Counted from the first letter of the stretch, positions 29,801 to 61,300 are shown. The stretch is DNA of 64,000 bases from Sipunculus nudus (GCA_026874595.1 CM049311.1:69667453-69731452), one strand, 5' to 3'. Notes: generated by a model not told the origin, from the letters alone. Made by a program: numbers and translations.

Positions 29801-30725
29801 GTATTGATAAAACAGATAAATGTCAGGGGCATTATCAGTGAGTGAATTCAGTCAGCAAACAGTATTTTGATGGATACTGTACCATTTTTGTTATGTTTCA
29901 GTAATTTGACCTAAAAATCATTGAGCAGAAGATAGGGTGTAATGTAGGGGTGGGGGGTGGGGGTGGGGGGTGGAGGGTAGAGTTGTACACTTTTAATAAT
30001 AATGACCTTACATCTTATTGGTTAGATGATATTATATCTTATACTGTTGTTTTGGCATAACAAAATGTTTTATGCTGATGCCACTACAAAAAACCTGAAT
30101 GTTTTTATTTAATGTAAAAATAACCTAGGATTTGGATATTTGATAATAGTAAAACTAGAAAATCTATCCTTTGGTTTAATTAATTCCTTTTTAGTGGTAC
30201 TATGATTACCACAGCAGTTCCACTTTTAAGATGATGTATTAAATTAAGTGAATCTTTCATGTTTTATACACCCAACCGCACACTTGGCACTCAGCCAGAG
30301 ACTAAAAGTCTCGGGAGACCGTGATATTTCATAGGGTCATTTAGTTTTAATGGAATTTGTTTTACACTCAGGAGATGTACATTGATGGATTGGGACAACA
30401 TCAGAGGTTTGGATAGTTAAAGTGAAATTTAAGGACAGTCATTCATGTCTTGTTTTGTTTCTAGGCTAATGTGAGACATTTTATGGAATGTGTTCGTGCT
30501 GGGGACCTGGAAAAGATCACCCGCTTTTGCAACAGAGGTCTTGACCCAAATTTATTTGAAAAAGAAACAGGAGGTTAGTTATTTGCATTCTTTAGGATTT
30601 CCTGGCCCAATTTTCTTAAAGAGCACTGTGTATCAACTTTGTGGTCATTAAGTTCTCATACATACCCACAGGTGGCAGTACTTGTTCTTCCATTTATTTT
30701 TGCATCTATGTATCTCTAAAATATG

Positions 30726-30804
<79 letters not shown>

Positions 30805-33800
30805 GATATATTTACATACATAAGCATTTGCACACACACACAATTTTATTTTTATTATTTTAAAATCATTTTAAAGTTGGCTAAGTGCATAAGAAATTCA
30901 TTTGAAGTGTATCTTAACCTGAACTATTATACGTCCTAAGAAATATATGATATTGGCAGTAAATTTGCTTTATGTAATATATAATATATAATATATAATA
31001 TATAATTATGTCTTGTCTTCATATACAGAGACTCCTTTGACCATAGCTGCCACAATGGGAAGGGCCCGCTCAGTCATTTTGACTCTAGTCAGCGGAGGGG
31101 CACACATTGACTTCAGATCAAGGGATGGCTTGACGCCTGTACACAAGGCTGCCAAAAAAGGAAATATGGAGGCATTGAAGGTCAGCTAGCCCTTGTATAA
31201 ACTTCATGACTTGTCTAGATAGCTTGAAGCTCTTCAAGTGCTTGTGACTTAAAAATTGATAAGTTTGATTCATGAAAATAGTTTGCTTCACGGGTAAGGC
31301 CCCTGAACAAGAGCTTAACCATAAATTACTATCACTGAACGAGTATAAAATAAAACAGAAACTTGTACTTCTCTGCAAAGTAAAGTTGTAAGAGATAAAA
31401 AGAGTGTTGGGACAATGTTATGGTTAGTATTTTTAATATGCCCATAACAGGAAAGTAGTAGAACAATTTGTTCTGTAGAATTTGTTTGAGTTAGCCAGTA
31501 GACAGGGCTTGATGTGCCCGTGGTTAAGTTTATACATTTTTACAGGTGCTATCAGTTTAATTAAATTAACCAATCAATATACTGAATGGTTTACATTTTA
31601 AAAAATATACAGTAAATTGATGTCGTCATCATTTTAAGACTGTGCTTTAGTTTAATGGGTAATGTTACTTGTAGGTGTAACTTTTGCACTGTTTGCCAGA
31701 CACTTGCAGTCTTACCTAGAACTTGATGCACCGTCACAGACACTATAAAATCTTCTCATGTTAATTGTAACTTTACCTTTTTGCAGACTCTGTTAGACCT
31801 TGGGGCATCACCCAACTACAAAGACTCGCGGGGGATCACCCCACTGTATCTGACCTGCAGCAGTGACACACCGCCTCGTGTGGTTGAGTTGTTGCTTCAC
31901 GACCATGCCGTTATAGGTGCTACAGATGACCGGGGCTGGACAGAAACGCATCAGGTATGTCATTGTGTCACAGAATTTATCAGCCATCCAGTTAAATCTG
32001 TCAGGCCATTTGTGTTTTATTTTCTGCTGGAAAATATATGAAATTTTATTGATGAGTAAAAAATGTTGGAAAAAAAATTTAAAACCCTTTAGGGAAATTA
32101 ATATTTTGTTACTTTCCCTTGTTGTATTTCGTTTTCCTACAGATTGAAAAAATACAATTTACCCACAGCTGAGTCTTAATTCGTACATAATCATTTTGAT
32201 CTCTGATATAAGCATTTTAGTCTGTACCAACATTCAGTATGGCAACACCTATGGATGATAAACAAGAATGTTTGTTTCTTAAAGTGTACTTTTCTGAAGG
32301 TTTAAACTTTCTAATCTGTGCTAAATTAATATTCAAAAGGAAACATTTGCATCATACATATCCTCGAGGAAGGGGTGGGTGGGGGAGAAATTGATAGAAT
32401 ACGAAGCCTTCCTGAAAACTATCAGGTTTTTATGTCAAATCTTTGGTTTCCTGCAGTTTTAAAGCAGTTATTAAGATTTCCCAACGTCTATCTTAAATCC
32501 TTCATGAAACTGGGAAAATTAAACTTTAACAGTGCTAAATCTGAGCCTTGTGTTATATCAAGGAGGACATGTAACAGTGATGTAAAATATGACTTTATCA
32601 TGTATCAGTGATGTAAAATATGACTTTTATCATGTAACAGTGATGTAAAATGTATGACTTTTATCATGTTTCAGTGATGTAAAATATGACTTTATCATGT
32701 AATAGTGATGTAAAATGTATGACTTTTATCATGTAACAGTGATGTAAAATGTATGACTTTTATCATGTATCAGTGATGTAAAATATGACTTTTATCATGT
32801 ATCAGTGATGTAAAATGTATGACTTTTATCATGTAACAGTGATGTAAAATGTATGACTTTTATCATGTATCAGTGATGTAAAATATGACTTTTATCATGT
32901 ATCAGTGATGTAAAATGTATGACTTTTATCATGTTTCAGTGATGTAAAATATGACTTTATCATATAACAGTGATGTAAAATGTATGACTTTTATCATTTA
33001 ACAGTGATGTAAAATGTATGACTTTTATCATGTATCAGTGATGTTTAATATGACTTTATCATGTATCAGAGATGTAAAATATGACTTTATCATGTATCAG
33101 AGATGTAAAATATGACTTTTATCATGTATCAGGGATGTAAAATATGACTTTTATCATGTAACAGTGATGTAAAATGTATGACTTTTATCATGTATCAGTG
33201 ATGTAAAATATGACTTTATCATGTAATAGTGATGTAAAATATGACTTTCATCATGTATCAGTGATGTAAAATATGACTTTCATCATGTATCAGTGATGTA
33301 AAATATGACTTTATCATTTAACAATGATGTAAAATATGACTTTTATCATGTAACAGTGATGTAAAATATGACTTTTGTCATATAACAGTGATGTAAAATA
33401 TGACTTATATCATGTAACAGTGATGTAAAATGTATGACTTTTTTTCTTCTCCAGGTTTGCAAGTACGGTCGAGTTCAGCATCTAGAACATTTATTGTTTT
33501 ATGGGGCCAACATGAACGTCCAGAACTCAAGTGGCAACACACCACTACATGTGTGTGCTGTGGAGAACCAGGTATCTATGAACTAGGTCTCTGTGGTTGT
33601 GTTCTACATCTATTAGATTAAACTTTGTAGAAACCTTTTCGCTTAAGCTACTTTGGTATTATATTATGATTGTGGTGGTAAAAAATGGATTTCTCCATAG
33701 AAAGATGTATATTTTTATAGTTTTTCTGACAGACCTTACAGCATAAGTAATTGTTATTTTGAAACAAAATTGAATCCCATAAGAATAATCTGAATTAACA

Positions 33801-36800
33801 GGTGTTAAATAAACCTCACTATGTCACATAACATGGTGTGAAGCACTACATGAATATCACAAAATTGTTCTTGGTAAATTGTGATTGTTTAAATTTATCT
33901 CAGGATTAAACATCTTAGGAATGTGCATTTTTGAGACGCAAGGTGATGTGTATACTTCATATCTTGTGTCAGTTAACGGGACGTTCCATCGTTTTTTACC
34001 TGTTTTTCATTATAGGAGTCTTGTGCACGGGTGCTGCTGTTTCGAGGGGCTGACAAAACTATCCAGAATTTTGCTAATCAGGATGCTTACCACACAGCAC
34101 TGATAGCAGGGAACCATGAGCTGGCCAGAATCATTGAAAAACATGACCCACAGGAAGCTGGTCAGTATCAAAACTCTTTCAATCACTCCATTCTTTAGCA
34201 ATGTGGTAATTCTATCATTTTCCTCATAGCCACAAGGTTTGGTGGGGGGGGGGGGGGGGGGGGTGCCATCTGGTGGCAAATTTATGAACTATTTTGAACA
34301 CTGCAGTGTCTTCCTCCATACTAATTTTGCATATGTAAACTTCCAGTTTCCCCCTTAAATTTTCAGTTATGTTAATAAATAATGAATTTTTTACTGCCAA
34401 TTATATCAATTTTGTACATTGAAATTTCCATGGTGTTGAAGATGTTAACTTTACCTGTAATCCACACCCACTGTGAATGTGTGGAAAATTGCATAATAAA
34501 GCCATGGCTAATCTTAAGTTCCCTGTTCAGATAAATACCTAAATATTGCATGATGACCTTAAATATGTCCGATATAAAAACATTGTCTAATATTAAAATA
34601 AAAAGTGGGTTCTGCTGAAATTTTCTGTATATACCTTACCCTACAGTTTGCCAATTTTGAGCAGCGCAATCACATACAACAACTTTGTATGATGAGCTGT
34701 CTAATGTTACAATTTTAATTACGCAAATTTATAAAAGATTGAAAACAGAGGTACCTTTCTTTACAGTGCCATTTCAAGAAGTGCCAAAGTACAACGAAAA
34801 AAGAAGGGGTCCAATAGATAATTTTAGAGCAACGTTAGTACGAAGTAGGAGTGATCCTCGACTTAACGAGAATCTTCATCAAGACTATAGATTAAAAACT
34901 TCTCAGACAGTCCGAGCTCTACCTCATTTTCGATCCAATGACAATCTCATGGATGATTGTAATGGTGGGGTGATGTTAGACCGATCAGCGCTGGACTCAC
35001 CGCGTTCTACAAGCATTTCTAGTGCTGGTTCAGGTAAGATATGGCTCAGTATATACTCATCTGTATATTCAATATATAATTGGTATATGTCATTGTATTA
35101 TTTAAAATTCATTGAAAATTAAATCCGAGGGAATATATCTTAGTCTGCAGTAACAGCAATCATTAATTATTTGTAGTATTCCTATAAATAATAAAATTTG
35201 TCACAAAAAGGCCACATATCTAACTAAGCAGGAAATTGGTCATCTATGTAAGAAATTTTAGGATCTCATGTTTCATGTCATGAATAGTTTAAAGAGATAA
35301 AAGTGAAACAGGGTCAGTTAGTTAGCCTTCTGCCTGAAACAGAAACAGTGTATGATAAGAAAACAAAACATGGTGTATACTCTGTTTCCTGGTAGAGTTT
35401 TCAATGTGTGGCACCAGTCACTTGTTATTTATATATAGTACATTTAATACAGTCCAGCCTGTTTATGTCATATTGTCCATGCAGTCTACAAATGTGATCA
35501 GTAACTGTGATGCCTGGGCTTCAAGGCTTGAACACATTTTTGACAGTGTGAGAACACGTCATCTAGAGTGTGTTTTGGATTTCAGACATCTTTGACTGTA
35601 AACAGAATTTTCTTACAACTGACTTGACACTAAATGGGCTTGTCTGTATAGTTTTCAAGATGTCACACACAGAATGGAATATCACCATCCCAGCCCAGTC
35701 TGTTCATTTTCCCTATTCCTTTGATATTATTCTCACCTGTGTGCAAATTTTCTTCTACATGATTTAATCCTTGATTGTGAAAAGTATCTAAAACATAGAA
35801 TTTGGGTTTATTTTTCCAAGATGCTATCAGCCAGTTCTGTCTGTGTAATTTTTCTTATCATAATGTCTAATTTAAAGTCAGTTTTTCATATTTTATTATA
35901 TGTATATGACTGATTCAATAATTATTTAAAAATGGTGTGCAGGGAAAACTTGTAAATCCAGTGAAATTGTTGTTAATGAATTTATTATACAATGCAGTAC
36001 CATAGATGACACTAAGAACAAACTTAGTCACAGACACACAGAATATCCCTTGAAAATTGAATCCTTATCTGTTGTTTGTTTTCACCAGGTTATTATCTTT
36101 CATACGGAGAAAATTTAAAAAGTCATTATGAATTTTGATGTTTTGAAAACAAATAAATATTGATAGCCTCACAGATCACTCCACTGCATGCCTTGACAAC
36201 TCTGTTGGGTGTCATCTTATGTAATTTATATATCACCCACCAGGTGGACTCCCGCCAAGTCTTTTACGCAAAATGCGATGTTACTCGTACTGTAGTGGTA
36301 ACGCTGATGGTAAGACCAGGTGTCACGCTCAGTGTCATGCTGCATGTCGTGATGTTTACACGATGTTATTTGTTCCTCTTTTAAGTTTTGAAAATGTTCA
36401 TTTACATCAGTCCTCCTAACCACTGCATGGTTTTGTTGTTTCTTCATCTAATTCTTCATCCCTCTTCTGTTGTTTGGAGAATTTATTTGAACATTCTGTT
36501 CATGGAAATGTTTACTGCATATAATGTTTATTGCATATTGTGGTCTGCATGCTGCATTATTTATTCAAATTTGTGTTTTTTAAGGGCTTCAACATTTTAC
36601 TCATGATCATCAGAATCCCTATGTACCAGTACTAGTTAAAAAAGTTTTTCATTTATATTTTAAGGTGAGGGATAGAATTTATTTTTAAGATTTTATAGCA
36701 GATATAAGGAGGGTCTGATTTTTATGTAGCTCACTTCTGTTGCAGTAGTGCTTACACACAGGTAAATTGAGTTAGCATCATTTCAGATTTGCTACCATTC

Positions 36801-39800
36801 TAGTAAGAATGCCTCAGAAGGAATTGGTAAAACCTTTAGATTTTTAGTAATACAGATTAAAGAAAATAAGTCACAACAGAGCAGGAGTAAATTAGAATGG
36901 CAGAATTCCTGCTAAACATCATACAGATTAAAAAGTCTCAGTCATAAAATTTATGAGAACTTGAGAGCCATGCTCAGTCTCTCATTAATAATTTACCTGG
37001 TTATCAATCATAACATACCTGGGCATTTCAGGCAAACATTTTCTGTATATTAAGGAAATATTCACAACACTGAATTTTATTTACTTTGGAGGCATAGTAT
37101 GGGTATAGAATGAAAGAGTTCATTCTTTTGATTTATTTGATAGATTGCTTCAACACCAACCCTTCCCCCTTAATTATATTAGTTTACAAGAAATACATGT
37201 AATAGTGAATTTCCCTTGCCTATAAATCTTGTTGGAAGCAAGGTTTTATGATGTTTGTTTTCAGTAGACTTTGATTTTTTATCAGCTTTTCTTTTCCTGA
37301 TTTTGACTAACCAATTGCACATATGCCATGCATTTGCATATGTATATATACATGAAATGCTATAATATACATAATAAATACAGTCAGCTTTATTATAATT
37401 GTAACATATTACAGGAGTATATTATGAAAAATGTATAGGTCATTCAGAAATGTATGTCATCAGATGATTAATCAAAATTAAAGCTGTCTTTTCCTACTAG
37501 GATCAGTTTAGCAATGGTTAAGCAAGATTTAAACTCTTGTTTTATGTGATTCTAAATGGAAGCTACTTTTTCTCTTTAATAAGCTATGATAGATACACCT
37601 ATGATTTAATGGTTTTCAGTTACCATCCTGGTAAATGAAATTTTCACACTGAGCATTGGGGCTAGATCAGAGCACTAATTTAAAGGTGTACATATTTTGT
37701 TTAAAGAAATTGTATATAAAGTGATTTCATGTAATTTTGATGTAATTGAAATTTGTAGCATCACTATTTATTAAATCAGTTTGATGTATAGTTTTATAAT
37801 TTGTATTTACCAGCCACAAATTTTAATTTAAATGTATATTCATACAGTTCAGTGGGTCTTCATGCCCAGTAATAGGAGATTTCTGGTTACAGTAATGTTT
37901 GATGAGTCTTTTTCAAAGTGTGCTTTATGTGGAAGGTATTGTATGCAATATGCTTAATGTACTGCGGTTGTCGTCTACAGAGGCCATCTATGAGTCCCTC
38001 CTGGACTTTAGTAATAAAGCCCCAGTCAAACGGTTGTACCTCACGCCTCCCGGCTGCATGTTCGTGTGTGTGCGATCGTTCGATCCCCAAGAAGTAGGGG
38101 ACCTCAGACTCAACAAAGGCGACGTTGTGGAAGGTGGCCATCCTTGTCCATATTTTGCATGTTTGGGTTATGGCTGTTCAGTTCAAGTTACAATGCATCA
38201 TGTATTTTGTTACTTACTGACTTCTCTTTCATTCCCACCTACTGGCCACTGTGAAGATTTATTTCTAGCTCATCATAGACATGTTGCCATGATGTGTCAT
38301 CTATTTACTTTTTGTCAATCTTTTTGCCGCTTTTTTCAGCAATGGCTGGATAGCTTATTTTGAATTGTACACAAGTTTAAGAAATATCATCTTGTCCCTA
38401 CCAGTTTTTCAGAACTAAAGGACACCTCTGTAAATGCAAACTATGCTGAAAATTACAGGATTTTATATTTAAAAAAAAATCTCAGCAGTGGCTGCATGGA
38501 GTGTGCTGCATGAAATTCAATACTTTCACAAAATTGGTGGCGACACCTACATCTGAGATTCTTTAAAGTTAAAAAGCTTTGGTTTTGAATTTGTTTGAAT
38601 CCTTGCAATAATTAACAGTTATATTTCATTCAGATAATTCAGAAAGATGTTTAACGAATGAAATAATACAGATCTCTGTTTTTTTCCTATATGCAAAATG
38701 GCCATAGGTCAACAGATGATATTGGAATATGTGTTTTAATTAATTATCTATGTTTATTACATTTTCCAGGTTTTACCAGTATTTGTTGCTGGGTATTTTA
38801 AGAGCTGTAATTGAGGTTGACTTAAGCATATTATTTAAGTCACCTTCAGTGTGACAACCATCTCTTTATTTATTTTAGTCATACTCTAGATGGATAACAC
38901 CCGATAAGTTGCTTAACTCCAGATAACGCTAGATGTTTCATATTAAGTAATTTCTTTCTTTTCTTTTTATGTTTTTATCAAATTATTCCCTGTGGATTTT
39001 AACCTCTTAAGAAATAAACAATTTTAAAATTTTCAATCCCTTCCCACGTTGTGGATAAGTACTTCTACATGTAAAAAATTTATATATGAATAAACCCACT
39101 ATTCTCAAGTTACCATATTTCAAGGAAAGAATTATTACCAATTATGAATCACAAGTGGATTATTGGTTTTGCATTGCTTGTAAGTTTCCCAGATTTCCAG
39201 CAGCAAAGGATATTTTTCAACATTTTGAAAACATGACACTTTTGCCAAAAGGAGGAAAAATTGGTCAGATTCCGGGATCTCCAGTCTTCAGTTACATGCA
39301 CATGGCTAGTTTTAATGTGGAAGCCCAGCATGTCTTTAATCCACTACTTAGTTATAACATATTTAGGTTTGGCCACGTTAGGTTTAGTTAAGTTTAACTG
39401 CATGATTATAGATTTAATATTCAAGAACTCACTATCACCCTGCTAGATGACAGTAGATGCATTTTGGATTGTCTGCAAGGCATCTTAAGCTGTTTGTTGG
39501 CATGTGATCTATTTAGTTTTTAGAACAGTTAAAATATAGCCACTTCCTCATTTCAACCCTTTTCATTCATATTTTTCTCCATACGCGTAAAGTATCTCTC
39601 TCCTATGTAATCAAGATCTGTCTTTTAACAGTTATCTTAAACATTTCTGTCCTTGTGCAGTCATTAATCAATCACTGGCATACAATTTTTATATTGTATA
39701 AATTAAACCCGATCTGCCAGGAGTTTGAAGATAATTTACATTGCTGGGAGTAAAGCCCTCAGTTGTTATGTGTCCAGAATTTTGTCTAGTATCAGTAGAC

Positions 39801-42800
39801 ACATCCATGAAATATTGAGAACATATCAATCAGGTCTGTACATTTTAGGCCTAACGCTGGTGTTTTAATTATTTACCCATTCTGTATAATTCAGATCACC
39901 ACAATTATCAAAATGCCTTTTTTAAATTAATTATAAGAATAATAGTACACAGAGAGTAATATGACTAAATATATTTTTTTCTAACTTGTGTTTTCCTATA
40001 CCAAGCTAATGTGTTCACCTTTTAGAGTTAACCATGAAAGCAGGTATATATAGTTAGTATATTAATGATTAACATGTTTTTTTTTATGAATAAGTGTATT
40101 GAAACCTACAGAGATTATGCAGATACTCATACTGTTACATACATGGATATTAAGTATCATGGGCAAAGGGAATTTAGCATTAATCTCATTGACTGTTCAG
40201 TAGTGAATACAGTATGAAATTTCATGACTGATTAGTGAATATTCATTATGTGATAATTTAATGCAGGAAGTTTTCTTGTTGCGCCTTAGAGTTACTTTCC
40301 TGTTTACTTTTTGTGCTCTTTCTTTCACATTGGCAGCATATATTGAATGTGCATCAGTTTTTCTTTTCTTTTCCTTCAAAAATACTTTAATAAAAGTAAA
40401 TTTCTGCCAATTAACCCACACCTGCTACTGCCTTGAGCCTTTGGCACCTGTCTGATTAGTAATAATTTACCAAGTAGAAGTAGACTTTTCACAATAAAAA
40501 AGGAGGGCACTGTGTTTTATATATCTATTTATTTTCATAGTTTAACTTTTTTACTGGTGTTTCTATATTCCAGCTTTTGCACTGTTGAATAATTCTAGGT
40601 TAATAGCCTTAGGTTGACAATCTTTTTACGAGTTTCAGATTGGTTGCAAGTATTTATTGGTACAAAAATGCACCATATATGACAGATCATTTAACATCCT
40701 TTATATCATTTTTTATACATCTTGACCTTTGACATGGCAGCAACATCAGAGACGATCTCTCTCCTTACAGAAGCATACTTGTGTTTGTACTGCATACATA
40801 GCACCATGCCATCATTTTACCACAGACACAGATAGCTAGTGTTAGCTGATGCCTGGCTTATGTGTGTCTTAGGATTTGTACAGGAGAATGACACTTTGTA
40901 TCTGTCTTCCTTTCTAGTTCTTAGCGTGGGTGAGCAAGGCTTCTGGGAAGGCCGTGTCGGCAACAAGGAGGGCTGGTTCCCAAGTAATCATGTACAAGAG
41001 GTCAAAATGAGCAGGCAGAGTAAGTAACGTTTCATAACCTCCTTATAGTTACAGAGTTAAAAGACGCCCCAGTCTTGAGTTCAAAACCAAACCTGTCTAC
41101 ACATGGTTGAAGTATTAGTAAAATTGATGTGCCTTGTGAGAAAGTCTAATTGCTACCAGAGATTTATGCTTGTCGTGAAAATAACACTTTTAACAGCAAC
41201 AAAGTTTCATACCATTGTAGGTAACAAGTTAAGTGTAACAATCAGAAAACAGACAGCTTATATTTTTGGGAATATTTACAGATTAAGTTAAATAAATTTC
41301 AGTTACTGGTTTTGAAGACAACAATTGCTGAAGCTTTGTGAGATAATATGTACTGAATTAAAGCTTAACAAAACATTTTATGCATGACGTTTTGTAACTG
41401 TTGTACAGAAGCTTATTTATTTGAAAACTTATTGGTATGGAAATCAGAAGGAACAGAAAATTACATTGCATAACCAATGAAAGGACACAATAAGGAAAAT
41501 CATATGATAGGAAAATTAGCAGTGTACATGTATGCTCATACTTTACCATGTTTAAATGTAGACAAAACCTTTATTTTCATAGATTTAAAAAAAAATTACT
41601 GAAAAAAATATAATATAAATGATTATGCTTGAATGAGTAACAGCTGTTGGTTTAAAGGAATCTGTGTGTATAAGTAGGATAAAAATACGTGTGTACCAAG
41701 GTCAGTATAAGTATTGTTTAAATGGTCTACCCTGTATATCTGTAAACTTGATTATCTTGGTCACATCCATGTTCATCTCAGTATTTTATAATCCGTGTTC
41801 TATTGCATAGCAGTTTTTGCTTCCATTTATCAGATTGACAATTAGAAATAAGGGTGTCCTCTTTTTTTCAGATTCTAGTGATAAAGATGACATTCTAATC
41901 AAAAGGGATACCCTGACAGCCATCGCCTCTGGCACCAGGTAAGCTATCTTATAATGCATTTATAAAAGTTGTGACAGCTTGTATAAACTGTGTCTGCATC
42001 ATTGACTGTAAGAAATAATACAAATGCCCTATCAGAAAAAAATGCTCAGAAAAAGCCATGGGTAAGAGAGGGGGGTTGGGGGTGGTAGGGGGTGAGAGGG
42101 GGGTGGAGAGGAGGATTGCAGCCCCTTGTTGAACAGACAGGACAGGAAGACATGACATTCACCCGCACCCTTTCACATTTCAAGTCCAGCTTCTTGGAAG
42201 TGCTATGGAGCTTGAATCTTCATTTGTTTTTTTCTGGGGATTATTCCTGTCCCTGTACACAGAACTCTTGAGATTCTGAACATTCCACAATGACACGTCG
42301 GTCAGTTTGACTTTTTACTATGATGCAGTACATGCACCTTCAAAGTAATATACACAAGGTTTACTATCATTGCATGTTAAGTATTTATGATGTCAGCAAA
42401 CTAAATTGTAAATTCAGTAGGTACAATCCTATAAGGCAATTTCCAGTTCTCTAATTCTCAAAGTTCAGTGAAACCTCCCAATTACAGACGCTGATTGGAC
42501 TTCAGGTTTTGTCCATAATAGAGAGGTGCCTGTATTAGAAGTGACAGCTCTCCACATATCAATTTACTGTTACTGCCTGAACATCCATAGGTCTATAACA
42601 GAGTGATACCGGAAAAGAGAGCCTTCTCTGTAATGTTATTTTCAAAATAGGTTTATTCTCTTATTAGAAGATACTATCCATGTTTAATTTCATACAAGGA
42701 TGTTGTCAGTTCCTATTATTTTCACTAGTCTCTCTGTTGAATTTAATGAATACCCAAACTATGCAGTCAGTAACGCTCATTTGGTAGGAATATTAGTCAG

Positions 42801-45800
42801 CTGCTTAAATTGGACCTGGCAGTAGTTCATGAAGATATGTTTACTTTCTGTGTAACATCTATAATAGTTTAGGCCTATTTTTGACAACTTTACTGATAAA
42901 TTTTATAAAACTCTTTTGGTTACTTTTACAAGGTATCAAGGGAGAAAAGCAGGTTCATGTGTCCTATTTTCTCACAGTTCTTGTCTTGCAGTGAAGGCAA
43001 CATCTTCAGTCAGTATCAAAGACACATTTGGACACCTTATCTTTGCCACAGTATTAAAAAATAATTGATCAACTCTATTTCATTTGAGATTACGCCATAC
43101 ATAAAAATCAAACAGTTTGGCTTTTTTAATATAAATTGAGAACATTGTACACAGTCAACTAGAACTAATCAAACCATTGACATCTGTACATCATCTTTTA
43201 AAGCTACGTGACCTCATGAATATTAATGACTGTGTGACCAGGAGATTGATAGTAAAACCATCTGGTGTAGTTGTCTAATCATTTATCATTGAATTTGGCT
43301 GCTCAAAACTATGTGCACATATGATTTCATTAAGTAAGGCTATTGTCAGTGTTTTTCAGAATCAGCTGCAAGTTACACTGCAAAAAGATTCCTACTGGTT
43401 AACGGAGTATTTTCTCTGACTATTAATTAAAGATAATGAGTCACTATCCAGGAATTTCTTAATGCTTAATTGATTTTCTGTGGTTTTGATGCATGGTTAT
43501 TAACAAGCTAGTCATAGGTAAATATATGACCTTAGTTGCTGCACTGTACAGTTAAAATATTCATATGCTCGTGTTGTGTTTATGTGCTATTGTTTTCAAA
43601 TCTGCTTCATGACATTAGTCATGTGTACCGATTCCTATACAGACACAGCCTTACATTCAAATTTATCAGTATAAAAAGACAGCATGCCATTCAGCATGAA
43701 ACCTGTTTTCCGATCGTTTTGTCCAGTTGGTTGTTCAGGAACTATCATATTTCTGACATAGCTAGATATTATCGCAGTTATGTTGTGTGTGGAGCCATAA
43801 CACATTTTAACAACATGTTGGGGTTCATTTTGACGTCGTTCTGTACAAGACTGACAGACATTACTCATAATTGTTTACCTTTCCCAGGCTGCTCAGTCCC
43901 ATGCTCCCGAGTGACAGACACATCGCGTGTATTGTGTAGTTACGTTAGATTTATGTCATAAGCAAAATAACAGGTGTAACAGTAATGAATTATTCAACAT
44001 GGATCTGATAGTACCTACCGTCTGTGTGTGATGTAATTTTGTGTTTTTTCTGTGCATTTTTTTTAAAAGAAAAGTGTACACTGCTGCTGATGAAGACTGT
44101 ACTCAGCCACATGTGCCATATTTTCTTCACAGATTGTTAATGTAGCATCCTTGTTGGTTTCATTATTGATGAGGTCACTCATGGCTCTCTAGGAATAAAG
44201 ATGGTTTTTGTCCTCCCACTGGAGTATTCATATATAGCTGGGGTGTTCCATCAAGCGTGACTGCCTCATGTATGCAGTTAGCCACACAATGCTAGTGGGT
44301 TTACATAGGAGACATATCAGTGGGCAGGAATTCATAGCTTGTGTGTCAGTTTTTGCAGTAGGGAGACTCTCATTTCTCTACTGGGGATGTGTGTGTCGTA
44401 TATGAGCACAAGGGACTGAGAGTTGAGACAACGGATTGTTTACCTGTATACAGAGATGTTTACCTAAGGTGGCCTTAGAAGGCACGGCACTGCACGCAGA
44501 GTTTCCACAAGACTGCCTGTGAAAGGACTACTCACCTGTACTTACTGTGCCGTGCAGATCTAGGCCTGTTCAATGAAGGGAAGCGCCATTTGCTTGTCAT
44601 TTTGTTCCTTTTGCATTCCAAACTGTAAGCGGATCGAGTTTGTATGTGACCAAACTGGGAATGCCTAGGAGTGGATCTGTCATGTCATATTTCAAATTAC
44701 ACTTGAATTGTCTCTGATGGACTTATGTTAATGGTATGGAAGACTTGGCTTGGTGTGTGAATATATAATCCCTTCAGGATGTCTTCACCCAGGCATAGTA
44801 AATCTAAGCAGGTAGCCAAGCCTGACAGGATGCATCAAAGCATACCTGTTAAGCAGGAGGCAGAAAGACATCACCGACACTATAAACGTAATGACAACTG
44901 GGACACATCAAGTGTGCATAGTGTGCAGTCCAGCCCAGGTCGTGTGTTGGCCCATAAACGTCAAGGTGGATCCACACCACGAGGCACCATTTCTCGTTCA
45001 GGAGGACTACAAGTAGTGTCCACTTTCATTGAACATGGAGGAGATATCCACGTAGAACCTGCACCAATCCCCAGAAGACCAGCACCGCCACCCCCAAAAA
45101 ACACACAGCCAAGGACTCTGTCACGCACGGAGGGGATTAATATATCTAAGGACCTGGAGAAAGATAAAGCTCTTGCTTCTAATGACGGAAATTGGATAAT
45201 ACAAACAGACAGCATGGAAAGGTTAGTTAGATCAAAATCACAGGCCCACTCTGCCGCAGATATAGCCAGCTTAGCCTCAGCATTAGGAAGCCCAAGTCAT
45301 GGAGGAGGAGTTGAGTATGACGAAGAGGGTCGCCTTGTTGGTGTGCCCAAAATTAACAAATCTCCGTCTGTAAGTGATATGTCATTTAAGAAGCGCAGTT
45401 TACCGGAAGGTGCTGCATCTATACTGGTTGATCCAGCCCTGTATCGGAACCAGCCAGAATCACCCGATAGCGGAGTGGCTTCTCCATTAGAAAACAGTGG
45501 TGCCAGCAGTATGCCGACAACCCCCAGAGGTGCACTGCCAAGTGAAGCAACCAGTACTTACCATACAGTTGGTTCTGCACATCGCAGACTTGTTGCTTCA
45601 GATAGTGCTCCAGTACAGGTGCATATGAACACAGTGTATCAACCAATGCCAGACTCAAGGCCAGTCCAACAACCGCCATTAGTTGTCAGGCAACAACCTT
45701 TACCTGGAGGAAGGAATGTCAGTGCCATGGTTGTCAATCAGAATGCTACAATCCCAGGCCATACCCGCCATGCTTCTACCCCGATGGTTTTCCACTCCAA

Positions 45801-48800
45801 CATACCCCAAGGCCCACCACCTCAAAGTAATCCCGAGATCGGTAGAAGACAACTGGTCTATCAGGGAGGACAGCCTGCTGTTTCCCAGCAGCAGCCCACA
45901 GTAACAATGTTTAAAGGAGTACCGGGGCAAATACACTACATGCGAACTGTTCCAAGAAATTTCCGAGCTACATCAGCACCAGGTGCTGCAAACAGGAGCA
46001 TGACTGTTAACACTGTGGTACCAGCACCAAGGCAGGGTTATGCAGCCACCTACAAAGGCTCAACTGTTAAAGTACAGGTACCATCCTACAGCAGGGAGGA
46101 GGCTGATGGGATGACAAGTGCTGCATCAATCCTTGAGGCACACAAGAACTTTCGAAGTGATCCAAATCTTCTACAGGACCATGATATATATGATACTATC
46201 CCGATGGTTCCAAGGATAGAAACCAGGGTGGAGCAAACGCAAGCTTATAGGAAACCTCGAGTTTCAGAAAAATCTATGGGAGATGATGAGGTATTCGCGC
46301 AAGTGGATCCATCTAAAGGTGAAGTAGTTGCACAAGTGAATCCTCCTAGACCTGCAGTAGTTAGACAAGTGGATCCTCCTAAACCAACAATATTTGCACA
46401 AGCGGATCCTCCTAAACCAGCAGTATTTGCACATGTGGATCCTCCCAAACCTGTGTCACCACAGCCTCAGTATGTATACTCTTGTTTTCATCATATTCTT
46501 CTCTGTCAATATTTGCAAGTCATAAAGGTGAAACAGGGAAGACTGGAAAGAAAAGAAGTTTATGCCAGGGGATTTTTTTTAGGGGGGGGGAGTATCATGC
46601 TGCAAGTTCAGCCATTGAATTTTCAGGGATGTAGGTCCTTGTCTCAGTCAACTACTTACCAATATTTACTCTTTGTGTTCATTGGTAGTTTTCCCCAACC
46701 TTCATGTAAATTTTGGAAATTCTTTAAGCTAATGTTTATTAAACCTTATGTAATTGAATTATAATTCTCAAGCTCATCCAGTGCCTCATTTGGTCAGCAG
46801 GTCATAATTCTGGCAACATATATAAAAATTGCATTTTGTGTTAGTTCAAGAGGAGTTGATTTTATACCATATCTTGTGGAATGGTCTGAGGATATGTATT
46901 AGTTGTACTTTTGTTAAAACAACCAGGATCATATTTCTTTGGCTTGCCTTTGATATGATACACTTTTTTTATGCCATTGTAGATTTATTTGGAGCACAAT
47001 AAAGAACTGTCTCTTTTGATTAGGTTCAAGCAGTAGAGATGCTCACACAAAGCCTTCTGTACATCCCAGTCTTATGTCCTGCATTCCTATCATATAATGT
47101 GAATCTCTGTAAGGTGAGAAATAACACAGTTGGGTTGGGTATAAAAGAGTCCTTACTGTGCCATTTAACCCACTGGTGTACTTCATTGATTTTTAGAGTC
47201 ATGTTTTCATTGACATTTTTTGCATTTTTGCCTGTCTCTTCCATGTATTTTCAATGGATGGTTGAACAAGCATTAACACTTGTTTTTTTTTTATACCCAG
47301 TTTCAAAAGCCAAAATTTTTGAAATATCAAATGCCTTGCGAATGTCTAAATAATTTTTCTATATAAAACTTTATATATGCTCAAGTCTGGTTAATGTTTA
47401 CTTTACAAGGTCTATAGTCAGATGGTAGTTTATTTCCAAAATACAAGGTTGATTTATCAAGGGCTTTGTGCAGGTCTTATATTTCATTAGATTTCTCTGA
47501 AATGAAGCTGGTAAAGGTCAAATCAGTTCATAAGGTACATGAGAAGAAGACTGATGACAATTCCTTTTTATTTATTGATGCCAGTTTCAAAAGACAAGGT
47601 TGACATATCAAACACCTTATGAACATCTCATTAAAAGTAAATGAATTATGAAGCTGATGGAAAGAAATGCAGCTCCGAGGAATACCGAGATTCACAGTGA
47701 CACCTGGTCACACATGGTTGAAAGGGCAGATGTTGACCATAAAAGGATCTGCCTCAGTTGATGCAAGTTCTATGGTGGGTTGGCTTGAGTGTCACTCGTC
47801 ATAATGTTCATGATTGTCAAGGTCTTTACTCTTCTATTGTACGTTGCTGGCCCCAGTGTTCAACCCTCAACAGGTTCTCAACAGGGTCTTGGCAGATTTC
47901 CAAAGCAGTGTCCAATGTGTACAAGTTTTAAATAGGAGGCTTTCTCTGTAGTCTGCTTTATTTTTCTGCTTGCATAATCAGTTAGTTTACTTACCAGAAC
48001 ACCCAAAACAATATTTACATGCTCTAATGACAGGTTGGATGGCTTGCTGTGGTGAACCTCTGGTATTTTTTGTATTTTATCATTGTGTAGAGTTAAATTT
48101 GCTGCTGATGATGCATTGACAGAGATTAAAATGTTTTGTCGTAGAGCAGGGCTGAACATTCATCATCACCAGTTGATCAGTTATTACATATCAAACTTAA
48201 ACATAGATTTTTATGCACCTTCTGCCAAATTGTGGCATGCCTTGTGTTAAAACAGAAAGTTCTGGTCTGTCTCCTGGCTGGCTCTTTATATTTTATGTAG
48301 GACATTATCTATGATTGTTATTGTTCATGTATGTCTTTGATTGTTGTTGTTCAAGTATATATGAGATGTAAGTAACATTCCTGCATATTAATAACCTTGT
48401 GGGTGAGTGGGAGCATGAACCGTGACCTGAGTTTGATGTTCACCGACCTGAATCACACCGACAGGGAGTGTAATCCACCACCACGCACTCTTGTATAAAA
48501 ATGTCAACTATGTGTTCTTATTGTTTGGTACATGGTGGCATCAGTGTGTTTTATATGACTTACATTTGATATACATACATGATGAGGTGGTGTCATGGGT
48601 TAAAGTCACTCCTCATCATCTAAGGTTGATCATGTGACTCTTCATAGTCATCTGAGTTGCTGACATTCTCACAACACTGACATGGAATGTGGGAATGTGA
48701 CAAAAACACAGGTGTTAATTACTAATTATCCACCAGTTTTGAACATGTATCTTGACACAGTTTTGTGTTCTATTTTTTATGTAAATCCCATTCTTACACT

Positions 48801-51800: not shown

Positions 51801-54800
51801 TTCGCATACATCATTACCACGCTATCTGCAGTTTTACATTCGAGTACTTAATCCAGGATGATAGTATGGCAAAGTAGTCACGTTTATTTCACTTGGACAG
51901 ACCAGGTGCGTTCCTACACACTTGTAACATTTTCTTATATACCTGTAGACTCTGTATATCAGATAAGGTAGATTATATTGTGCCCTGAGGTCAACACCTG
52001 ATACAGGGGCTTGCTATATAAAACCATGTGGCATTCCATACGATCCTTCAGTGATGCCCTTAACAATAAGAGCTCGTTAAGCTTCTCTTTAACACAGGGC
52101 CCGTGTCTGCTACCTGTGCTGTGGTACCATCCTCAGTTAAAGTGGTGTCTAGTTTTTACGCATGTGCTAAGTATATGGTATGATGAGCAAAATACTGCAA
52201 GTTCAATGGGGTTGTTGCGTGTAACATTGCATTATACAGTCACTGAGCTGAGTTTTTTACAACATCATCAATGATACACTTCGTTGATCTGTTTTTGAAG
52301 TATCATTGAGGATAAAGGGTGGTTTTGTGTGGTACGCTTGGATATCTGAGTAAGAGTACTTGTTCATGATCAATACACCCCTGCACAGTTGGATTTCTTC
52401 AGGTTAAGGATGATAATTTGCCAGTACGTGAATATAGCCGGACTCTCAGTGGCAGTTTTTGTGATAATCGTAGTGAAAGCCAGACTGAATGGAGAAAGAT
52501 TAAACAGTAGCCAGGTGTTGGTGTAAAGTTCAATCAGACGATATTACAGCATCACTGTTTAAAAAAGTCAAATTACAGTACACAAGATTATAAAACAGGT
52601 GTGGTTAAAATACAAAAAAAAAAAACATAACCATGGTGGTCAAAATGACTAAAAACACAGGACTTAAACCACAGTGGTCAAATTGACAATTAAAAACCTC
52701 AGTGGTTAATCTGAATAAACTTCAAGTTAATGTGCAAAGAAAAACCCAATGGTCAATTAGACACAATTTACAATATATAGCAATGATTGACCAAAACAGG
52801 AATCTTCCATTGTGATAGTGAATGTTGTACTTCATTGAGTTATGGTAGTAAACTTCGTAATCTGTGTGACATTTCGATAAACATTTCCTTGAGACAGGTT
52901 TCACCGGATAACACCTCAGCCTGTTGAATCCGCTATGCCTGTGTTTAAAGGACGCTCTAAGAAAAAACTGACCTTTTCTTCTTCCAGGGAATATGCTCCC
53001 AGGACGGTGGTTCTACAGAGGGGGAAGGGAGGCTTCGGCTTCGTGCTGCGAGGAGCCAAATGTGAGTACAGTTACTATCACCATCTTTTTGACACCCAAG
53101 GTAATTCCTTTATTCATAACAGTTAGGGCTGGCATAATTTTATCAATATATCAGTCAATACAAGGGGGTCCATAGCATTTTGAAGGCTCTGACAAAAATC
53201 AGTATGACTACCAGTGGCTCTGACAAGAATCAGTATGATAACCAATGGCTCTGACAAGAATCAGTGATAACTTATGGCTCTGACAAGAATCAGTGATAAC
53301 TAATGACTCTGACAAGAATCAGTGATAACTAATGGCTCTGACAAGAATCAGTGATAATTAATGGCTCTGACAAGAATCAATATGATTACCAATGGCCCTG
53401 ACAAGCACCATATGATTATTCCAGTGGCTCTGACAAGAATCCATATGATTACCAATGGCTCTGATGAATGTATGTTAAAATTAGATACAGTTTTCTAAAA
53501 CAAATACAGCAGACTGACAAGATTGTAGGTTATTCTTAATCTATGGCCAAAAGAATACATTGCAATGCCAATTTTGATAGTTTGTCAAGATACTTAAAGG
53601 CAAATAAAAGTGCAGATAAAACATTTTTGTTACTTCAGTACCCTGTGGTACTACTTTTGGATGGGAACTATTTTCCTTAGTCTTGAGTGGTTTCACCAGG
53701 TTCACTGACAGTGTGTAACCCTTTATGGATGCAAGCTGTGTGTATGATTAATAAGACAGAAGCAAGGCATCCGTGACATCCTTGAAAGAACTAGGTCCCT
53801 TCAGACATATAAATGTATACTTCATACTAGTGGTATCAACCTGAACTACACGCTCCACTTCTTGCTGTGTAAAGATTGCATGGTTTAGAATAAGGGTGTC
53901 CTGAACTTGACCAAGGTCACATTTAACGTCACATGTCACATGATTTTTAAGTGTACTAAGACTTTCTCCTGTGTTCTGGTTTCCAGCCTGTATTTATAAT
54001 ATATTCATGAAATACCTGAAGCATGGCATATGCTGTAACTACAGTTTATGCACTTGTGGAATTTAGCCAAGGGGTTGAACGTAGCCTGTTAGATTTGGTA
54101 TTTGATTTCATACTGTTAAATGAGAATTAAACACAGCAATCAGTTTTCAAGAATAGCACAGCCCCTACCCCAAAGCTGGCCTTTTTCAAAGATGCATAAA
54201 TCTGAGATGGCTTCATAGTGTAAACAATAATGCCATGTTTTTATCTTCATCTCCTCACTGTAAAATGTATGTTTTTACAGTGGTTCAGGTTGCAAAAGAA
54301 AACAAAAAAATATTTTATATTGTAAATACAGAAGTATTTTAGGGATTTTAATGACTTGGGATTTTGGATAATCCACAGTTGTCCACAATTTTAAGAACCT
54401 AACAAGCTTTCATCAGAAAGAGTATAAATTTAAAAAACAACTAGCAAGTCTTCATCAACATGTAACAACTCTGCCTTTCTGCAGATTATTTCACAATGGT
54501 ACTTCATTAACAATATTTTAAAAGTTCTTTACATTTACCATTGAGTCATTACAAATTTACAGGTATACATTCAGTAATAATTAGCCTTTTTTAATTACAT
54601 CTCCTTTCATAGAAAATTTGGACTTTTTGTTTTTTTTCTGACTTAAGGCTCAGTCTACAAAAAAAATTAGCTTGTTTGTAAAACAGAATGACAGATTATT
54701 TTCAGGATCCACAGTCATTCCTCTTTTGTTCTATATGTTAGACAAATTTGATTGTAGTGAACTGAAATAAGTCAGATGTTGTTCATATTTAAATGCTTTT

Positions 54801-55321: not shown

Positions 55322-58300
55322 ATGAACACATGCAGATTTCAAATACAAATATCTTTGAAACTTGCACATGATATGTCCCTATCTTTTCTAAAACTTCAAA
55401 ATTATAATTTGGATAATATTCTACTATACAAGGCACTGTGACCTGCTTTTGGAGTGGTTAGCTCTGTATTGGATATAGATAAGACTTGGTAAAACTCAAC
55501 AACATATCTCCAGTAGTAATGTTGCTGGGAATTAGAAATTTAAAATTATCATCTGAGTCAGTATCCACAGAGTGTGGATGAAAGTCAGTGTTAAGATGTT
55601 GTCTACCTGACTGAGCTCTGCTGCACACCTGTTTCACTGTGCATTGTGATAAACATTATTGTGTAAACACTGACTGATCAATGACATTGATCTGCTACAG
55701 ATGGGCAGCATTGTCTGAATATATAAGTTCATACATTGAGTCCTCTGTAACACTGCTCTGTACTTTATGGAATAGACTTGTGGCTTCCTGTTTGTCTTCT
55801 GACATATCCCAGGAATATTTTATCCTGCAAATCCTTCAAAGGTATCAGAGACATTTTTCCATGAGCCAGTCTTTAGGCCTACACAGTTTTAAGGATCATT
55901 TCAGTCTCTTTTGAAGTTTTGCAATCCTGGATGGATGAAGAATTTTTAGAGGATCATGATGTCTTCATAAATGTTTGATACACTTGCGGATTAGCATTAT
56001 TTGAAAAGAACAAGATTGGATCTTAATACTGTAATTAGCTTAAGCCTGTGTCTGATATATATCAGCTGGAACCGATCAAAAGGATATAGATAAATAAGTG
56101 ATTACACTGTCTGCTTTCTGATGTCAAGATAAGCACTGCATAGTGGATGCAAACAACTATCTTCAAGGCTGATTCACCAAAGCATTTGGTCTTTCAAGGA
56201 CTATATTTTCCATACATTGGCCAGGATATGAACTGGTGGCAAAAAAGAGTTTATGAAATAATCTTTAATCTTTAGTACATATACTTTGATCACCACATAC
56301 TTGCCATAAGACTTGTTGGTCAGCATGAATTTTAAGCTGAAAGGTGTTAGTAAACCTCTGCGCAGCGTCCTCAGAAGGTTTAGTGATGATGCCTCTTGTG
56401 GAAGTGATAAGAAAACAGTTACAGATTATTATGACACCCAGGAAAACATGGTTTATGGTGGGTCAAATATTGAACATATATGTTTTTATAAGAACAAGGA
56501 GATCATTATCAGAAGGCTTGCTTTTTAGTGACAAGCTGAACCTGCAACCCAGCCACTGTAGGCTGAGTGTAGATTGTGTTTTGTGATCAGCAGGATATTA
56601 AAATACAGAACTAAACAAATTTAAAATACAGTTTGACAAAACGTGTCAGCCTTCACAACAGGTGTTAAAATAGAATCATCACAGTAGGGGGGATACTGTA
56701 ACTAGTAACATTCTGTGATTATTAACAACTTCTTGTGTTCTAACTTGCAGCCCAGGACCCGAGGGCCAGGATTCTGGATTTTTCACCCTCGGCAGAGTTC
56801 CCCGCCCTGCAGTACCTGGACCGAGTTGAGAAGGGTAGCATGGCCGATAAGGCAGGACTTAAACCTGGAGACTTCCTCCTGGAGGTGAGCCTAATCCATT
56901 GCTATTAATGGTGACACAGTGAAACCTATGTTATGAGACCACCCATGGGACTGGCTGAAAGTAGTCTTAGTTCACAGGTGGTCTTATTAGATAAGTCAGT
57001 TACAACCAATGTGAATGCTTTTTGTTCACCCAAGTGCACATTGTGCAGGTGGTCTTATAAGACAGATGGTCTTTCAGACAGTTACCACTGTATGTGATAT
57101 GAATGAATAATATTTGATATAATTGAGTGTTGTGATTGTAATTTATATAATGTATGGTGTGTATTATATTTTCTGTATATTCTGTCATTACTTTATTGGT
57201 TGAGGTAGAATGTAAATTAATTATTAAAAATTGTTAAAAGATCTTGGATTTTAAATGTGTGATTAGTACTTAAAAAATCACAGGATTCAGGACATTTCAA
57301 AAGGTCATAAAAGGCATGAAATTTTATTGTCAGACAGTTTGAAAATTATATTTTAATAATCATAAATGACTTTACCCATATTTACATGATGGAAGCTCAC
57401 TGTGAGTGTGAAAAGTTATAAAGCAAGATTGGTAATTTATTCTTTGAAAAGGCCCTTCAAATGTCATGACATTTTTATCTTCTTAATTGTTGAAGTACAG
57501 AGGAACCCACAATTAGGACCACCTCAGGGACTGACCAGTGTGGTCATAATTTGGGGTTGTTGTATTTTTGAAATTTAAGTTACCTGGATCATATATTCAG
57601 AACTAAGAAAAGTGGTGGCAATTGTTGGATGGTCACTAGGCAGGGTTCCACAGTATGTGAACCCTGAACCCTTTCCAGTAATTTAAATCTTGGGTGGGGG
57701 AGGGGTTGTGTGTGATGAACTCTTTGTGTTACAATTGCATCATGCATGTACAATACTTTTCATCATACAGAATAGTTAAGCATCCTCTTCGGTATGCGTT
57801 TGTCAGACATTGGGCTCCACCTCCTCACATAAACCCTGCAAAGCCATTGGAACACTTTTATCATGAGACTGCTGTATTAATATATAAATATATAATACTG
57901 AAATGGTCAAGTTTTCCACCATACAAATGCACACAACAATTTTAGTTTAGGAGCTAGATCAAGGCTTTGCAATATAAATTAATGAAAACAAACCTGATAA
58001 TGGACATAGTGATCTTAAATAATTTTTTGTTATAATGTTTCTTGAAAATAGTTCAGTATATATAGGAATGTGTGGGTACATATAGTTCAGGTTTGATTTC
58101 ATGTTGTTGGCCATGATTGTAGGAATTTAAATTGATCTAAACCAACCAGATCTGACACAGGGATAGAATTAGTCATTCATAAATAATTGAGGTGAATCGC
58201 TGCCGTACCCAGCCACACATGGCCACCCATGTGTAACCAAGAGCAATATGGCAGCCAGCTCAGACCTGTACATTCAACTCTGCCGGGGCAGATGTTGACG

Positions 58301-61300
58301 ATCAAAAATTGACTGTCATGTGACCAAGACGTGAGGGAATCCTGGGGTATTGTACACCTCGGAGATACCGTGTCCCTGTGCAAATAAAACACACATGACT
58401 TCAGTACCACTTTTGTCACCCAGGATTAATCCAACCCAATTTTGTGACCTGGTGTACTTATTGCTTATAATGATGATAATGAGTCTAAAAAATCACCAAG
58501 ATGTTACCCATTCTGTTTTATATTTATTGTAAGAACAGTGGGCCTTATGGTTCAGGAGGACAGTACTTGGTACTGTTTTATTCTGTCCTTGCAGAGGACA
58601 GGTTGTTATTTGTTTACAAAGTTTACATACTTCACAAATGAATAGTCCAGGTGACAAGAAAAGATTTTAAGAGAAGGAGATTAAAGAGAAACCCTGTTCT
58701 ACAATGATATAGACATAATTAAAATTATTTATATTTCTTGCTTTGATAAATTTATGACATAGAGCAGCTTAAATTGTCTTATATAAAATAAGATCATTAT
58801 ATTTTGATAAACAGGTATACAGTCCTTTTGCAACAGGGGTTTTTAGTCATGTTTACATATACACAAATAGCAAATTATTTTTTCCTCATTTCACTTAATG
58901 ACATTAGACCCCTGATATTTTGGCTTGATTTATTATAGTAAATAATATTTCTGTGACACCTATTTATGTAATACATAGCCATAGACAGTTTTCTGTGGAG
59001 GTTTGTAAACCATTGGTTCAGAAATCATCTTTAGCCTGCTAATTTCTCGTGAGTTTTCAGTTTTGCATTATCTAGTAAAATAATGATAAATATCATAATG
59101 AAAAAAAAAATTCTCATATTCTTTTTTTAGCTCAGCTGACTGAAAGTCATCTGAGCTATAGCGATCACTCTTTGTCCGTCGTCCGTCTGTCCGTCTGTCT
59201 GTCTGTCTGTCCGTCTGTCCGTTAACGAGGCACAAATCGTAACCACTAGAACTGGAATCTTCTTACTTGACATCCTGGGAGGTCCATGAAAAATCTCCTT
59301 GGAAACCAGAAATTAGGTCTCTGTTACCCATATCCTTCGAGCTATGGGGCCCCAAAGTACCCCCCCAGAAAAGTCCAAAATTTCATACAAAAACTTCAAT
59401 ATCTCATTAACTACTTGACTGATGGTCATGATTTTTGGCATACATATTGATCATGAGAGGTTCCATCATTTCCTGAAGACTGGTGGCGCCACCTGTATTT
59501 TTCGATTTTTTACGAATTTTTTTCTCTATTTTTGAGACCTTTAAAAATGTGAACATCTGTTAACAAGGCACAAATCGTAATGACTGGACTTAGAATCTTC
59601 ATTCTCGACACACTGAGAGACCTATGAAAAGTCTCCATGGAAGCCAGAAATTAGGTCTCTGTTACCCATATTCTTCGAGCTACGGGGCCCCAAACTACCC
59701 CCCAGAAAAGTAAAAAATTTCAAACAAAAACTTCAATATCTCATTAAATACTTGACTGATGGTCATGATTTTTGTCATACATATTGATCATGAGATGTTC
59801 CATCACTTCCTGCAGACTGGTGGCGCCACCTGTATCGTTCAATTTTTTACGAATTTTTTCTCTATTTTTGAGACCTTTCAAAATGTAAACATCTGTTAAC
59901 AAGGCACAAATCGTAAAGACTGGACCTAGAATCTTCATTCTTGACACACTGAGAGACCTATGAAAAGTCTCCATGGAAACCAGAAATGAGGTCTCTGTTA
60001 CCCATATTCTTCGAGCTATGGAGCCCCAAAGTACCCCCAAGAAATGTAAAAAATTTCATACAAAAACTTCAATATCTCATTAACTACTTGACTGATGGTC
60101 ATGATTTGTGGCATAACTATTGATCATGAGATGTGTCATCACTTCCCGCAGACTGGTGGTGCCACCTTTATTCGATTTTTTACGATTTTTTCCTCTATTT
60201 TTGAGACCTTTAAGGATGCTGTCATCTGTTAGCATGGCACAAATCGTAACGACTGGACCTAGAATCTTCATTCTCAACACACTGAGAGGTCCATGAAAAA
60301 TATCCTAGGAAACCAGAAATTAGGTCTCTGTTAACCATATCCTTCGAGCTATGGGGCCCCAAAGTACCCCCCCCCCCCCCCCCGAGTAGTCAAAAATTTC
60401 ATACAAAAACTTCAATATCTCAATAACTACATCACTGATGGTCATGATTTTTGGCATACATATTGATTATGAAATGTTCCATCAGTTCCTGCAGACTTGT
60501 GGCGCCACCTGTATTGTTTGATTTTTTACGATTTTTTCCTCTATTTTTGAGACCTTTAAGGATGCTGTCATCTGTTAACGTGCCACAAAATCATAACGAC
60601 TGGACCTAGAATCTTCATTCTCGACACACTGAGAGACCTATGAAAAGTCTCCATGGAAACCAAAATTAGGTCTCTGTTACCCATATTCTTCGAGCTATGG
60701 AGCCCTAAAGTACCCCCAAGAAAAGTAAAAAAATTTCATACAAAAACTTCAATATCTCATTAACTACTTGAATGATGGTCATGATTTGTGGCATAACTAT
60801 TGATCATGAGATGTGTCATCTGTTTCTGCAGACTGGTGGCGCCACCTGTATCGTTCGATTTTTTACGATTTTTTCCTCTATTTTTGAGACCTTTAAGGAT
60901 GCTGTCATCTGTTAGCATGGCACAAATAGTAACGACTGGACCTAGAATCTTCATTCTCAACACACTAGAAGACCTATGAAAAGTCTCCATGGAAACCAGA
61001 AATTAAGTCTCTGTTACCCATATCCTTCGAGCTATGGGGCCCCAAAGTACCCCCCCAGAGTAGTCAAAAATTTCATACAAAAACTTCAATATCTCAATAA
61101 CTACATCACTGATGGTCATGATTTTTGGCATACATATTGATTATGAGATGTTCCATCAGTTCCTGCAGACTGGTGGCGCCACCTATGTTATCTATCAAGA
61201 GGTTACAAATTGCAACAACTGGACCTAGAAACTTCATTCTTGTCATGCAAGGAGGCCCATGAAGATTGCCTGTGGAAACTTGAAATTAGGTCTCTGTTAC

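Follow-up and report, generated by a model that had tools for sequence, protein, structure and literature searches.

Shank proteins organise the postsynaptic density, and in vertebrates they are tuned by promoters and by splicing. The isoform diversity that arises from intragenic promoters together with splicing is well known (PMC4113141, PMC11449796). SHANK2B is transcribed from a promoter of its own, located in an intron of SHANK2A and SHANK2E, and PDZ and SAM are the only domains that it retains; a variant in its codon 29, c.87C>G, adjoins the acceptor AG that is used by the longer forms (PMC11449796). Since the changed base lies beside this acceptor, the shared PDZ exon starts at the third base of codon 30, that is in phase 2, just as in the gene studied here. 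Codon 30 of SHANK2B is presumably located about seven residues before the TVVLQ of the PDZ domain, and the Shank1 chain SDYIIKEKTVLLQ from the PDB agrees with this position. The architecture of invertebrate Shanks varies, SHN-1 of Caenorhabditis elegans being devoid of an SH3 domain (PMC5432211), and SAM is absent from some metazoan Shanks (PMC2824662). Giant exons are known from neuronal scaffolds such as ankyrin-G (PMC12202978). A giant insert between SH3 and PDZ was not found described for any Shank in the open papers searched, a coverage that makes this weak evidence.

The window, that is the whole stretch of 64,000 nucleotides of Sipunculus nudus DNA analysed in this work, is part of a large chromosome in a 1.43-Gb assembly, and the analysis was extended 60 kb beyond it. 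One single-copy gene in the window comprises putative SPN exons as well as ankyrin, SH3, PDZ and proline-rich exons. This gene is Shank, the only one of this animal. Collinear exons from 16.2 kb to 63.5 kb were matched by tblastn, for which a Shank3 sequence served purely as a probe; Pfam domains and PDB matches confirm the assignment independently of this probe. According to Pfam, ankyrin repeats, SH3 and PDZ follow each other in that order in the spliced product, and closest to the SH3-PDZ part in the PDB are the PDZ domain of Shank1 (3l4f_D, 4.2e-26) and the SH3 domain of Shank3 (6cpk, 3.8e-15). The Shank PDZ domain is present in one copy genome-wide. The exons from 16252 to 29793 align with the SPN of Shank3, and the match of this region to FERM_f0 in Pfam reaches 24.6 bits, just under the cut-off of 26.9. 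The exons on either side of the segment considered below are the following:

16252-16323, 16798-16923 and 29722-29793, plus strand: putative SPN exons
30465-34160, plus strand: ankyrin repeat exons
34767-35033, plus strand: post-ankyrin exon
37981-38133, plus strand: SH3 exon, first part (tblastn, Pfam, PDB)
40918-41019, plus strand: SH3 exon, second part (tblastn, Pfam, PDB)
41872-41938, plus strand: exon 14, SH3-PDZ connector, entered in phase 1 and left in phase 2
52988-53061, plus strand: exon 16, start of the PDZ domain, EYAPRTVVLQRGKGGFGFVLRGAK (Pfam, PDB)
56751-56884, plus strand: PDZ exon, middle part (Pfam, PDB)
63375-63555, plus strand: PDZ exon, last part, plus the following linker (Pfam, PDB)

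Beyond the PDZ exons, the gene goes on in the extended window with a small exon and then a giant proline-rich exon (67776-70423), whose frame of 889 codons ends in the stop at 70424-70426 and in which a Homer-type PPxxF is present as PPPPMFE. No SAM domain was detected within 54 kb downstream (70424 to 124000, extended coordinates) with a probe that a diverged SAM could escape, and elsewhere in the genome a SAM probe gave weak matches only. The Shank gene may end without SAM, or its SAM may have diverged or lie further off. Within the post-ankyrin exon, LVRSRSDPRL constitutes a mode-1 14-3-3 type RSxSxP motif, and TVRALPH resembles TLRSLPH of vertebrate Shank3; this stretch is a possible conserved element between the ankyrin repeats and SH3. 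As an observation on the assembly (G000) as such, contigs C60-C62, C66, C72, C74, C75, C77, C79, C80, C83, C89, C90 and C123 are bacterial. The match on C123 reads as a cytochrome oxidase subunit I of bacterial type. Several COX1 and DnaK-type frames are spread over many contigs in nearly identical form, which gives the impression that the assembly includes several strains of an associated bacterium.

Between exons 14 and 16, the initial annotation had placed a single exon of 1692 nt with phase 2 at both ends, here termed exon 15. Location, length and phases are borne out by AG/GT borders, open frame and codon score. The features of this region are:

44150-44757, plus strand: GC-rich single-copy flank 5' of exon 15, perhaps regulatory or a 5' UTR (GC 0.445 over 600 nt)
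44758-44777, plus strand: acceptor region of exon 15, TGAATATATAATCCCTTCAG, with an in-frame stop (generic score 6.4)
44778-46469, plus strand: exon 15, 1692-nt coding, phase 2/2, 564 codons, probably disordered (open frame, codon score, splice sites; no family match; AlphaFold2)
44779-44781, plus strand: ATG, first whole codon of exon 15 and possible start of a PDZ-first isoform (context TTCAGGATGTC, A at -3; in-frame stop at 44758)
46300-46451, plus strand: 4.6 tandem copies of a 33-bp unit in frame, encoding 11-mers of the type QVDPPKPAVVA (Tandem Repeats Finder score 178)
46467-46475, plus strand: donor of exon 15, TCA/GTATGT, the weakest of 17 donors, with no other reasonable candidate of compatible phase at the end of the coding signal

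Exon 15 is bordered by AG at 44776-44777 and GT at 46470-46471. Its frame is open from the stop at 44758-44760 to the stop at 46762-46764, the chance of finding 563 open codons at the local stop frequency being 1.8e-16. With the other Shank exons as the training set, its codon score amounts to +0.31 bits/codon in frame and is negative in the other five frames, while intron windows of the same length (n=397) have a mean of -0.32 with a standard deviation of 0.07 and a maximum of -0.16. The signal becomes negative after about 46500, just past the proposed donor, and the tail of 98 codons that stays open to 46761 scores like intron (-0.47 bits/codon). Apart from exon 15, the only stop-to-stop frame of more than 170 codons on the same strand of 124 kb is that of the 889-codon proline-rich exon. 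The exon 15 protein is single copy, and nothing resembling the whole exon occurs elsewhere in the genome. Because of the long open frame, the codon score and the loss of signal at the donor, exon 15 can be taken as real and its 3' end as well placed: the segment 44778-46469 is a genuine coding exon of Shank.

A gene model from 16252 to 70423 is stop-free both ways, with 2126 residues when exon 15 is included and 1562 when it is left out. The earlier statement that skipping keeps the frame, with Arg versus Gln at the PDZ edge, was correct (AG/G versus CA/G, both products open). Between 46300 and 46764, position 46469 alone combines a compatible phase with a reasonable donor score. This score of 3.0 is the lowest of the gene's 17 donors, the next-weakest having 4.3. 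The acceptor scores 6.4, within the gene's range of 4.5-13.9, and 7.7% of intronic AGs equal or exceed this value with the generic matrix. When a matrix was derived from this gene alone, which is slightly blurred by two downstream training sites placed one or two bases off, both sites of exon 15 scored lower, at the level of the intron background. As looked for in a cassette exon, exon 15 has a splice site on either side and a length that keeps the frame, the donor being weak. Being frame-neutral and having the weakest donor of the gene, exon 15 is probably optional, with the weak donor as the sole pointer to optional over constitutive inclusion.

The 563 whole codons of exon 15 gave no family match in Pfam or NCBIfam, and P, S, V, A and R are abundant in the encoded sequence. 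Single-sequence AlphaFold2 yielded a mean pLDDT of 39 with values below 50 for 496 of 563 residues, as read from a program that often performs poorly on folded proteins too when it is given no alignment, and the charge-hydropathy value falls on the border between ordered and disordered proteins. By composition and single-sequence AlphaFold2 the product of exon 15 is probably disordered, and the earlier description of a disordered-looking sequence is supported on these two grounds. A pLDDT of about 70 is reached in one block only, at residues about 177-195 around VEYDEEGRLVG, which may be a short binding motif. The 33-bp repeat sits at the 3' end of the exon. Polyproline and phospho-type motifs had also been ascribed to exon 15. 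The former are slightly enriched over shuffled sequence (class I SH3 ligands 2 versus 0.9, PPP 3 versus 0.9), whereas the latter occur at chance level, with 10 versus 10.4 [ST]P motifs and 7 versus 6.4 RxxS/T motifs, and are no special feature of exon 15 since their frequency equals that of the shuffled sequence. A Homer-type PPxxF is not present in exon 15.

Several origins for this sequence were considered and rejected. The scores of local alignments with the proline-rich exon and with the post-ankyrin exon are reached by 31% and 12% of shuffles, respectively, and exon 15 is not regarded as a duplicate of either. Kinship with the vertebrate post-PDZ stretch RRAPPPPKRAP...RSKSM is borderline (5% of shuffles) and was rejected because the corresponding stretch of this gene is found at 66119-66217. 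Residues about 60-95 match designed DARPins in the PDB with a summed E of 2.6e-6; an ankyrin-like repeat was rejected, as E exceeds 30 for each of the individual stretches listed and Pfam gives no match, and the similarity is an artefact because many sub-threshold repeats were summed. A retrocopy or second locus was rejected likewise, exon 15 protein and Shank PDZ both being single copy.

We consider it fairly probable from splice sites and phases that exon 15 is an internal exon, spliced between exons 14 and 16 in at least some transcripts. Its junction lies six residues ahead of the conserved TVVLQ at the start of the PDZ domain. In the skipped form, 34 residues separate the Pfam limits of SH3 (437-489) and PDZ (524-615), and with exon 15 the connector would comprise about 598 residues, that is, it would be about 18-fold longer. 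Phases and Pfam limits uphold the claims of the initial annotation that a giant frame-neutral exon lies between the SH3 and PDZ exons and that skipping leaves a short connector. Inclusion would insert 564 probably disordered residues at this connector and, acting as a spacer, could hold the partners of SH3 and the ankyrin repeats far from those of the PDZ domain and the C-terminus. Skipping would leave a compact, vertebrate-like arrangement of SH3 and PDZ. It is a tentative extension of this proposal that splicing is regulated, such that a disordered tether of 564 residues at the PDZ border would switch the protein between a short-range and a long-range scaffold.

On the other hand, a PDZ-first isoform could begin with exon 15, because an ATG that has A at -3 is available there behind an in-frame stop. 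A promoter in intron 14 would then drive a short Shank starting at ATG 44779, with an N-terminus of 563 residues of its own, which would keep the PDZ domain and the proline-rich part and be devoid of SPN, ankyrin repeats and SH3. Such a protein would be the invertebrate counterpart of SHANK2B or of the promoter-specific isoforms of Shank3. We regard this alternative as possible but doubtful. The ATG, in fair context, is the first whole codon of exon 15 and in frame with the PDZ domain, and the in-frame stop lies 18 nt upstream of this codon; however, the ATG is directly preceded by an in-phase acceptor, and there are 11 upstream ATGs in 400 nt. About 2% of internal exons are expected to have methionine as their first whole codon, and an acceptor-like CAG/G in phase right before a true start codon is estimated to be rarer still (<1%).

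The base composition of the upstream flank also bears on an alternative start. Over 600 nt its GC content is 0.445 versus 0.26-0.37 at the other 17 exons, and it exceeds that of 98% of intron windows. The flank is single copy, for which reason a transposon origin was rejected, and a GC-rich single-copy flank favours a 5' UTR or regulatory stretch. The ratio of observed to expected CpG (CpG o/e) is raised to about 0.6 at 43400-44100, but that of the 600-nt flank is 0.31, which is the gene-body level, while most sampled start-codon flanks in the genome have 0.5-1.08, and the ratio is equally raised at other places in the gene. As a promoter test, base composition did not discriminate, the flanks of 15 start exons of conserved genes being too variable to decide. 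Islands of raised CpG o/e (0.56-0.78, with a gene-body median of 0.24) are located at 34400-35300, 26500-27300, 58700-59600 and 43400-44100 and may mark intragenic promoters or other unmethylated elements.

The position of exon 15 in a phase-2 intron before the PDZ exon, which is also where SHANK2B starts (PMC11449796), and the several intragenic promoters known in Shank3 (PMC4113141) are in line with a first exon. Judged by phase and by the presumed residue position, the intron of exon 15 and the one in which the short isoform of vertebrate SHANK2 starts are probably one and the same ancient intron. Weak donor, low scores with the gene-only matrix, ATG in fair context, GC-rich flank and the known vertebrate alternative start in what is probably the same intron (PMC11449796) all speak against an internal exon. 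The internal exon is favoured over the first exon because of the odds of an ATG coinciding with an acceptor plus the flank evidence, the test being a mild one.

Exon 15 might also be an alternative last exon, in transcripts that pass from exon 14 into it and read through the donor to a downstream poly(A) site. The ANK-SH3 protein made from them would end in a disordered tail and lack the PDZ domain. The frame is indeed open to 46761, an AATAAA is found at about 46998 and the donor is weak, but the 98-codon tail scores like intron and the donor at the end of the coding signal is matched in phase to the PDZ exon, which makes this reading very unlikely. Least probable of all is that exon 15 belongs to an unrelated gene nested in the intron between exons 14 and 16, or is a retrocopy or pseudogene there: it has no recognisable domain and does not resemble the rest of Shank, but both its borders fit the Shank phases, nothing like the whole exon exists elsewhere in the genome and the longest other forward open frame in the downstream intron has 109 codons.

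If exon 15 is indeed an optional spacer at the PDZ border, as we prefer, or else a SHANK2-like start, control of isoforms at this intron would have a longer history and take more forms than one would gather from the vertebrate literature. SHANK2B resembles exon 15 in that isoform-specific coding sequence is derived from a phase-2 intron just before the PDZ exon. The part specific to SHANK2B has about 30 codons and reads straight into the PDZ exon, whereas exon 15 comprises 564 codons, depends on a donor to be joined to the PDZ exon 6.5 kb further downstream and is preceded by an in-phase acceptor. The intragenic promoters of Shank3 and the splice variants of its exons 10-12 likewise tune the domain content around SH3 and PDZ, but these variants remove domains or truncate the protein, and none described in that work inserts a long disordered segment (PMC4113141). 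The giant exon of ankyrin-G is likewise a very large in-frame exon of a neuronal scaffold outside the repeat domains (PMC12202978). It belongs to another gene family and is demonstrated to be neuronal and functional, whereas exon 15 is much shorter and known from sequence alone. Within the same gene, exon 67776-70423 is likewise a single long, disordered and proline-rich exon; it follows the PDZ domain and has a Homer-type PPxxF, unlike exon 15, which lacks this motif and shares no significant similarity with it.
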